This document shows, in pieces, positions 5,483 through 6,355 of a stretch of 10,205 nucleotides of DNA (the stretch's first letter is position 1; each line of letters begins with the position of its first letter). The DNA lies in assembly GCA_002167215.1 (NCBI GenBank), contig NHDS01000034.1, positions 15,782 to 25,986 of the forward strand, given 5' to 3'. The DNA comes from Pelagibacteraceae bacterium TMED65 (lineage in GTDB: Bacteria > Pseudomonadota > Alphaproteobacteria > TMED127). Under the pieces are notes generated by a model. The model made no database searches. It had not been told where the DNA came from and worked only from the letters and a program-made list of their open reading frames with translations. The position numbers and the translations under genes are program-made.

Positions 5483-5558
5483 GGGGCTGTAGCTCAGTTG
5501 GGAGAGCGTCTGGATGGCATTCAGAAGGTCGTCGGTTCGATCCCGTCCAGCTCCACCA
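5483..5558 (+). tRNA. tRNA-Ala (anticodon GGC)
   Basis: A complete 76-nt cloverleaf with an encoded CCA end. The acceptor stem GGGGCTG/CAGCTCC contains the G3-U70 wobble pair that is the identity element for alanyl-tRNA synthetase. The D arm is GCTC/GAGC. The anticodon stem TCTGG/TCAGA closes (with one G-U) on the loop ATGGCAT, giving anticodon GGC at 34-36, which reads GCC and GCU alanine codons. The T loop is TTCGATC. One oddity: the T stem GTCGG/CCGTC has a T-T mismatch at 50-64. The gene lies between the zinc-ribbon gene and the hsp20 promoter, an arrangement seen in other alphaproteobacteria. Confidence 0.97.
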
Positions 5559-5570
5559 TAAATATTGGAA

Positions 5571-5622
5571 ATTATAGAAAAAGTAATTGAAAATTAAAAA
5601 TTGATTTTTAAATTTCTATAAT
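5571..5622. repeat. AT-rich inverted repeat with a nested second palindrome
   Basis: ATTATAGAAA at 5571-5580 is repeated perfectly inverted as TTTCTATAAT at 5613-5622. Inside lies a second perfect palindrome, TTAAAAAT (5594-5601) and ATTTTTAA (5604-5611). The outer right arm contains the likely -10 of hsp20. It could act as a weak terminator for the tRNA transcript, or as a protein-binding site over the promoter, or be chance in AT-rich sequence. No T tract follows it, so a standard intrinsic terminator is unlikely. Confidence 0.4.
5594..5622 (+). promoter_or_regulatory. Probable sigma-70 type promoter of hsp20-DUF1150
   Basis: The -10 TATAAT at 5617-5622 is a perfect match, and 17 nt upstream lies TTAAAA (5594-5599), a 4/6 match to the -35. 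Transcription would start near 5629, leaving a leader of about 53 nt that holds just the two hairpins described next. I see no heat-shock sigma-32 type boxes (CTTG-like -35 with a C-rich -10), which fits heat control acting on the RNA rather than on the promoter. Confidence 0.5.
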
Positions 5623-5635
5623 GTAGATTCAAAAT

Positions 5636-5681
5636 ATGAACGCTTTCGTAGGTTCATTTTGATCGCTCGAATTGAGGGTTT
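5636..5681 (+). promoter_or_regulatory. Candidate ROSE-type RNA thermometer in the hsp20 leader
   Basis: Two hairpins fill the leader. The first has ATGAAC (5636-5641) pairing with GTTCAT (5652-5657). The second has GATCGCTC (5661-5668), a 5-nt loop GAATT, and GAGGGTTT (5674-5681), ending directly at the start codon. The right arm contains the ribosome binding site GAGGG. Base by base: C5668-G5674, T5667-A5675, C5666-G5676, a G5665-G5677 mismatch, C5664-G5678, a T5663-T5679 mismatch, A5662-T5680 and G5661-T5681 wobble. The left arm carries TCGCT, matching the conserved U(U/C)GCU of ROSE elements. ROSE elements mask the Shine-Dalgarno of small heat-shock genes in rhizobia and use a G-G pair and a U-U pair to melt on warming. 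The leader is shorter than classical ROSE leaders. The assignment rests on reading, not on a covariance model. Confidence 0.6.
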
Positions 5682-6140
5682 ATGAATAGAATGTCAGTAT
5701 TTAACAGTCCATTTCTTTTAGGTTTTGATCAGTTTGAGAGAACCATAGACAGAATTTCTAAGTTGTCTTCTGACTCTTACCCGCCTTATAATATCGAACA
5801 AACATCTCCAAATAGTATTAGAATTACAATAGCTGTTGCCGGTTTTAACAAAAAAGATCTAGATGTAAGCCTGGAAGGTAATCAGCTCCAAATTAGGGGT
5901 AGCAGAGATGATAATGAGGCAGATAGAATATATATACATAGAGGTATTGCAACTAGACAATTCCAGAGAAATTTTATTTTAGCTGAAGGAATTGAAGTTG
6001 AAGAGGCATCAATGGATAATGGCCTATTATTCATTGATCTATCTCAACCAATTAATAATGAAGAATCAAAAAAGATTGAAATTAGAGATAAAAATAATAA
6101 AATTAAAGAAAATCTTATTAGTTTAGGAAAAGGTAAATGA
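5682..6140 (+). CDS. Small heat-shock protein, Hsp20/alpha-crystallin family
   Basis: ATP-independent holdase chaperone that binds unfolding proteins and keeps them for refolding by DnaK/ClpB. Of 152 residues, 1-34 are the variable N-terminal arm (SVFNSPFLLGFDQFERTIDR) and about 35-122 are the alpha-crystallin domain, including VAGFNKKDLDV and the signature DNGLLFIDL (112-120). A short charged C-terminal tail follows. The N-terminus resembles the IbpA-like alphaproteobacterial proteins beginning M-x-R-x-SVFNSP, so I chose the ATG at 5682 over the one at 5691. GAGGG lies only 3 nt before the first ATG and 12 nt before the second, so the second could be used. The stop overlaps the DUF1150 start as ATGA. 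The leader probably contains a thermosensor. Confidence 0.95.
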   Translation: MNRMSVFNSPFLLGFDQFERTIDRISKLSSDSYPPYNIEQTSPNSIRITIAVAGFNKKDLDVSLEGNQLQIRGSRDDNEADRIYIHRGIATRQFQRNFILAEGIEVEEASMDNGLLFIDLSQPINNEESKKIEIRDKNNKIKENLISLGKGK

Positions 6141-6355
6141 GAAGCAAAATTAATCCAGATAATTTGGACTTCATTGAATATGGAGACGCTTCACTAGCTT
6201 TCGTGAAGAAAGAGATTCATAAAGAAGAAAATTTTAGTACAGACGTATTCTCAGTATATTCTGCTGATGGAACACTCTTAGCTGCATTTGATAGCAGAGA
6301 ATCAGCTATTGCTGCAATATTACAATCCGGCTTAGAGCATATTAACCTTCATTAA
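6137..6355 (+). CDS. DUF1150 family small protein
   Basis: A 72-residue protein of unknown function found in alphaproteobacteria, typically encoded just after an Hsp20 gene as here. Family features are the middle stretch FSVYSADGTLLAAFDSRESAIAAI (residues about 38-61), an N-terminal segment around YGDASLAFVK, and the short acidic-to-His end (LEHINLH). There is no signal peptide or membrane helix. It starts with ATG overlapping the hsp20 TGA, with AAAGG just upstream, so it is translationally coupled and should share any heat control. A helper role for the chaperone is suggested only by the pairing. Its stop codon overlaps that of the convergent ptsN. Confidence 0.88.
   Translation: MRSKINPDNLDFIEYGDASLAFVKKEIHKEENFSTDVFSVYSADGTLLAAFDSRESAIAAILQSGLEHINLH

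Follow-up and report, generated by a model that had tools for sequence, protein, structure and literature searches.

The short ROSE-like RNA thermometer of Pseudomonas ibpA consists of two hairpins, a stable hairpin I and a hairpin II in which UYGCU pairs with the Shine-Dalgarno (SD) sequence of a small heat shock gene, and two-hairpin ROSE elements with U(U/C)GCU are tested thermometers in this genus (excerpts of PMC3669281). Counting back from G64/G65 in the start codon gives the Pseudomonas leader a length of ~61–62 nt (same excerpts), against ~53 nt for the leader described here if its predicted start is right. The same arrangement of hairpins, motif and gene is found in the 10,205-nucleotide stretch of DNA that was analysed (the window). 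It differs from family RF02523 (ROSE_3) in that its sequence is too far removed for a match and its hairpin I is AT-rich. We take RF02523 to be the Pseudomonas-type model.

ROSE1 of Bradyrhizobium japonicum hspA (RF00435) shares with the window the U(U/C)GCU motif, a bulged G opposite the SD sequence and a small heat shock gene, but has four hairpins instead of two; deletion of the first three leaves hairpin IV (excerpts of PMC3669281). ROSE-G elements, which lie before ABC transporter genes, resemble the window in the register in which it was first drawn, with the G of the motif facing a G of the SD sequence, and this opposed G-G is their mark (excerpts of PMC12857270). They carry CUGCU and a double G bulge (same excerpts), whereas the window has UCGCU and its relatives favour a single bulge, which places it outside ROSE-G.

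The hsp20 leader of the window

The hsp20 mRNA very probably begins with a short RNA thermometer of the ROSE type, a temperature response being expected by analogy with ROSE elements that have been tested. The features of the locus are as follows.

5483..5558, + strand: tRNA-Ala(GGC), upstream of and outside the element
5594..5622, + strand: promoter-like site TTAAAA-17-TATAAT (consensus scan, 10/12 positions)
5629..5681, + strand: predicted leader of ~53 nt, its 5' end a prediction from the promoter-like match
5636..5657, + strand: hairpin I, stem AUGAAC(G)CU / AGGUUCAU, G5642 bulged, closed by A5636-U5657
5661..5680, + strand: hairpin II (SD hairpin), bulged G5665, loop GAAUU at 5669-5673
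5663..5667, + strand: UCGCU, the U(U/C)GCU motif of ROSE elements (motif from excerpts of PMC3669281)
5674..5678, + strand: SD sequence GAGGG, 3 nt before the ATG (5682)
5682..6140, + strand: hsp20, small heat shock protein of 152 aa (PF00011, 63.8 bits), orthologues found
6137..6355, + strand: DUF1150 gene (PF06620), its start overlapping the hsp20 stop by 4 nt

The leader thus combines U(U/C)GCU set against the SD sequence, a bulged G or non-canonical pairs, two hairpins and a small heat shock gene downstream, all of them ROSE traits. The sequence-only reading had placed UCGCU opposite GAGGG and a first hairpin in front of them; the letters and pairs of the former are present as claimed, and the latter is present in the window and has three pairs that change on both sides in 23 relatives. 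The bulge motif of hairpin I, Y(G)CY/RGG, resembles the bulged-G motif of the SD hairpin. A promoter had also been proposed, and the match listed above was recovered upstream; sites like it number four in 401 bases compared with 1.7 ± 1.5 in shuffles (consensus scan). Transcription is predicted from this consensus match, which is no evidence of function, to start near 5629 and would give the leader of ~53 nt.

The GC content of the window is 30.7%, and the closest relatives with names are uncultured members of the Alphaproteobacteria, represented by single-cell and metagenome genomes of 0.9–2.0 Mb. Judged by GC content, genome size and the style of the isolate names, the clade is probably the marine AEGEAN-169/HIMB59, for which a GC content of 27.0–32.5% and genome sizes of 1.26–1.84 Mb are given (excerpts of PMC10308909). 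Because of the overlap with the hsp20 stop, the DUF1150 gene is perhaps under the same leader, a coupling that we infer from the gene arrangement. A DUF1150-like frame, taken as the longest frame within −20 to +60 nt of the hsp20 stop so that exact starts are uncertain, begins between −20 and +5 nt from that stop in 25/27 relatives, and the retention of this neighbour beside hsp20 hints at a common function of both.

Comparison with the Rfam ROSE models, which had been suggested as a check, gave no support: at cut-offs the tRNA is the sole match in the window, and at E 10 nothing ROSE-like appears. Because the curated cut-offs are not reached, we do not file the window element under Rfam ROSE, ROSE_2 or ROSE_3. 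The Rfam ROSE families also give no match at cut-off in 20 orthologue loci, and ROSE_3 exceeds its cut-off in 0/32 clade genomes.

Conservation of the leader in the clade and the class

The relatives examined are the 32 genomes of the family, which in the data used is the whole order. An Hsp20 match was found in 30 of them: 27 have a full-length orthologue with a leader, one has a partial gene without leader (L132, left out) and two have another copy only. The second hsp20 of genome G014, at a contig edge, and the second match of G169 were likewise left out. A strict descriptor, six pairs around an unpaired G with the SD sequence 2–20 nt from the start, is passed by 25 of the 28 clade leaders, window counted, with L111, L115 and L118 failing. 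The U(U/C)GCU motif likewise occurs in 25/28, the same three leaders having none, CUGCU and UUACU, respectively. Hairpin I GCTT is seen in 26 of the 27 relatives' leaders, the same 26 in which arm and SD sequence can be parsed, and L111 is without either. Control ORFs (at least 100 aa, from the same loci, mechanically listed) pass in 0/60 and 11/1102 cases and shuffles in 57/5600 and 15/3600, while shuffles of the window leader itself produce the descriptor 44 times in 5000. Two of the failing leaders merit separate mention: CUGCU in L115 (1960-2011) has the letters of the ROSE-G motif (excerpts of PMC12857270), and the genome that carries L111 (G007) lacks the element before its orthologue but has one before its other hsp20 copy (L141).

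Outside the clade the descriptor is passed by 64/72 alphaproteobacterial orthologues (best matches among those listed). A class sample of 190 genomes was drawn evenly; 100 had an Hsp20 match at 1e-35 (three in the clade), and 97 leaders were read. In this sample 74/97 leaders pass; judged by the first match listed for each, U(U/C)GCU is present in 67 of these and absent from seven. Because ROSE-type hsp20 leaders are this common in Alphaproteobacteria, the presence of the element in the window is expected; what is unusual is how short it is, in a small genome rich in AT. More than 40 ROSE candidates were reportedly listed by Waldminghaus et al. in 2005. Against the frequency of the strict motif stands the performance of RF00435, which is over cut-off in 0/190 class genomes with eight weaker matches at E 0.01; the 14 control genomes were silent too, which leaves this search without a positive control.

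Beyond the orthologues, hsp20 occurs at 27 further places in the clade genomes, and the leaders of 26 of these were read. All 26 pass the strict descriptor, 25 with CUUGCUU...AAGGAG and one with CUCGCUA...UAGGAG, and in 19/32 genomes there is a strict pass before both the orthologue and another copy. These leaders are very uniform, and their hairpin I pairs vary yet stay paired. ROSE_3 has its three best places over the 32 genomes, each below cut-off, immediately upstream of such copies; weaker ROSE_3 places up to E 10 are equally common in control genomes.

A hairpin I with Y(G)CY/RGG and at least three pairs below it is found in 21/28 clade orthologues, 26/26 other clade copies, 48/72 and 55/97 leaders of the two sets from other alphaproteobacteria and 41/46 phage leaders, versus 0/560, 0/520, 62/1440, 82/1940 and 1/920 mononucleotide shuffles in the same order. 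One phage leader (L302, no annotated start) was left out of this count, and the pairs in phage and paralogue leaders were counted by direct parsing, with no third covariance model, because MAFFT alignments misplaced the hairpin arms.

Covariance models were built from the clade itself. A first model, R1, made from eight clade leaders with the window left out, gives the window a score of 54 bits (E 1.3e-8) and recovers 23/27 relatives' loci at E ≤0.5 and 20 at E ≤0.008, the eight training leaders included. It is narrow, as it found nothing in 54 other sources searched with the window, among them other alphaproteobacterial orthologues and paralogues. A second model, R2, was made from the 23 leaders that R1 found. 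Over the 32 whole genomes, with the best 150 candidates per genome scored, all 25 places at E ≤3.1e-4 are hsp20 leaders and the next best stands at 0.014; since 23 of the 25 places had built the model, this is a test of specificity within the scored candidates. The same search missed two genomes with hsp20 orthologues, G007 (L111) and G008 (L112). Over 385 class genomes (best 16 candidates per genome) R2 returned five clade members and three weak places at E 0.02–0.05. The next-best R2 match and recurring weak matches of 66 nt and ~22 bits, four of which were examined, lie inside coding frames and were dropped.

Covariation, register and other readings of the leader

As a single sequence the leader has an ordinary folding energy (z −0.07 versus shuffles), and it is conservation and covariation, not folding energy, by which the element is held to exceed chance. 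In the 23 relatives' leaders 98.3% of cells are paired in the two-hairpin form, a figure from an alignment fitted to that structure and so favouring it. Two-sided changes occur at four pairs (eight cells), of which hairpin I has three and hairpin II one; of 500 shuffles, three reach four pairs and none eight cells, and slid-partner controls reach one pair at most. Further pair types number nine and are not above shuffles (8.4; 210/500 reach 9). The sequence-only reading had asked whether the SD pairing might prove neither conserved nor covarying in relatives. Its claim of a ROSE-type element right before hsp20 survived this comparison, with two hairpins at 5636-5681, the strict descriptor passed as counted above and the four two-sided pairs.

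It is improbable that the working repressing fold is instead a long-range hairpin that pairs 5635-5645 with the SD sequence and start codon (5674-5684) and leaves the two hairpins incidental. This fold does have the lower predicted energy in the window, by ~3 kcal/mol at 25 °C and throughout 15–42 °C for 5636-5684, and it is the lowest up to 37 °C for 5629-5684, where the two hairpins in the mismatch register described below take over at 42 °C; when 27 coding bases are included, still other structures have the lowest energy at every temperature tried. In the 23 relatives, however, the long-range fold has no two-sided pair, its 89.8% of paired cells fall below the 90.7% of shuffles and its Y-R pair is broken in nine, as opposed to the near-complete pairing and four two-sided pairs of the two-hairpin form. 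Hairpin I would presumably also form first during transcription.

Within the SD hairpin two registers can be drawn for the window. The one originally claimed has G5665·G5677 and U5663·U5679 mismatches with C5664-G5678 paired between them; the other has a single bulged G5665 with C5664-G5677, U5663·G5678 and A5662-U5679. Calculated energies prefer the mismatch register at 15 °C (−8.07 vs −7.41 kcal/mol), are level at 25 °C (−5.90 vs −5.85) and prefer the bulge register at 37 °C (−3.30 vs −4.00). The three pairs below the G, of which the first bulge-register pair is largely forced by the parse and the other two are free, form in 27, 25 and 27 of 27 clade leaders in the bulge register and in 14, 0 and 21 in the mismatch register; in 67 other alphaproteobacterial leaders the counts are 67, 65 and 64 versus 10, 65 (61 of them U·G) and 37. 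A G stands at the bulge place in 26/27 clade leaders and in 67/67 parsable leaders of other alphaproteobacteria, in a parse that permitted G or A only and preferred G. Taken together, the relatives' sequences favour one bulged G over the G-G/U-U register; the mismatches hold as a possibility for the window alone, where both registers can form. ROSE-like elements have been described with a predicted bulged G (excerpts of PMC11342760 and PMC11182007). The foot pair of the SD hairpin, which is free in the parse, unlike the SD core and the arm's Y, G/A, C and U, is A-U in 24/27 clade leaders and G-U in the rest, and C-G in 61/67 other alphaproteobacteria.

Taken alone at 25 °C, the SD hairpin has a median energy of −4.8 kcal/mol in the clade, −2.4 in the other clade hsp20 copies and −7.9 in other alphaproteobacteria, and in those other copies the SD sequence is predicted by the energy model to be unpaired for roughly one quarter of the time already at 15 °C. 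By this model the clade hairpin is ~3 kcal/mol weaker than that of other alphaproteobacteria, which suggests tuning to cooler water but may equally reflect plain base composition.

At habitat temperature, UCGCU would pair around the one bulged G with GAGGG and keep ribosomes off; warming would open this weak helix, six or seven pairs long, so that Hsp20 translation could start and, via the overlapping start, that of the DUF1150 protein perhaps be released too. Hairpin I probably assists the fold or shields the short leader. Self-repression by Hsp20 through the leader may act alongside such a thermometer, and a stronger form of this idea makes the leader mainly an Hsp20 binding site, with temperature acting via aggregates that draw Hsp20 off. 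Escherichia coli IbpA represses its own translation through the 5'UTR, and the residues implicated in this, R93 and Y34, are reportedly conserved among the IbpAs of Alphaproteobacteria (excerpts of PMC10474464). In the window Hsp20, Y33 and R92 are invariant in an alignment of 17 sequences including the window. We take these residues to be the counterparts of Y34 and R93. Self-repression is nevertheless compatible with a thermometer, and tested ROSE elements have this same bulged G and pairing of U(U/C)GCU with the SD sequence, so that a leader serving mainly as a binding site appears still less probable than the long-range fold. Least probable of all is a conserved hairpin that merely tunes constant translation or mRNA stability and gives no temperature response in the organism's range: the SD sequence is predicted to open little at any temperature tried (0.0003 at 25 °C, 0.002 at 37 °C), but the descriptor is found before hsp20 and rarely before control ORFs, and the bulged G and SD pairing are those of tested thermometers.

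ROSE-like hsp20 leaders in marine phages

Leaders passing the strict descriptor also precede phage hsp20 genes. On phage contigs all 24 hsp20 leaders pass, several being near-copies and two passing via a GAGA site. An Hsp20 match occurs in 507/50,697 phage records; in 23 records picked by hand 17 leaders pass, compared with 0/254 other phage ORFs, and the six failures all have CUCGCU or CUUGCU ahead of GGAG. Rfam searches of 20 phage loci gave three matches at E ≤0.1, each of them ROSE_3 at the leader and below cut-off. The passing phages include the pelagiphages HTVC103P and HTVC115P and the cyanophages P-SSM4 and S-RIM2; S-TIM61 passes too, without hairpin I and U(U/C)GCU, and is a doubtful case. 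On one phage contig (L006:221-2786) hsp20 and its ROSE-like leader lie among ORFs for putative ClpX, IF-3, ribosomal protein S21 and ClpS, as judged from translations read by eye.

According to one study, cyanophage Hsp20 resembles bacterial class A proteins more closely than host ones, and lateral transfer was proposed (excerpts of PMC3827213); the words thermometer, untranslated and upstream are absent from that paper. A ROSE-like sequence has been reported for one Anabaena gene (excerpts of PMC4166951). Among the matches listed from the open-licence PMC literature, none was found to treat ROSE elements of phages or of the clade. Phage thermometers, as the marine leaders may be, are represented by lambda cIII, SPbeta blyA (fourU) and a sigma70 gene of gut Caudoviricetes (fourU), none of which is described as ROSE-type or as lying before hsp20 in the parts of the sources used; blyA has been called only the second thermometer in a phage genome (excerpts of PMC11182007).

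The two-hairpin leader common to the clade and to marine phages of cyanobacteria, Pelagibacter and methylotrophs might mean that ROSE thermometers travel with hsp20, the phages having taken the switch with the gene from bacteria and exploiting it so that temperature sets the timing of chaperone production during infection, a proposal for which we regard the case as evenly balanced. The phage leader set is a more novel lead than the window element, which is itself a ROSE-type member, and if the phage leaders work, ROSE elements would join the few published phage thermometers. Streamlined ocean bacteria such as this clade are believed to possess few regulators, and a protein-free switch of ~50 nt before the clade's small heat shock genes would let it respond to heat at little cost as surface water warms.
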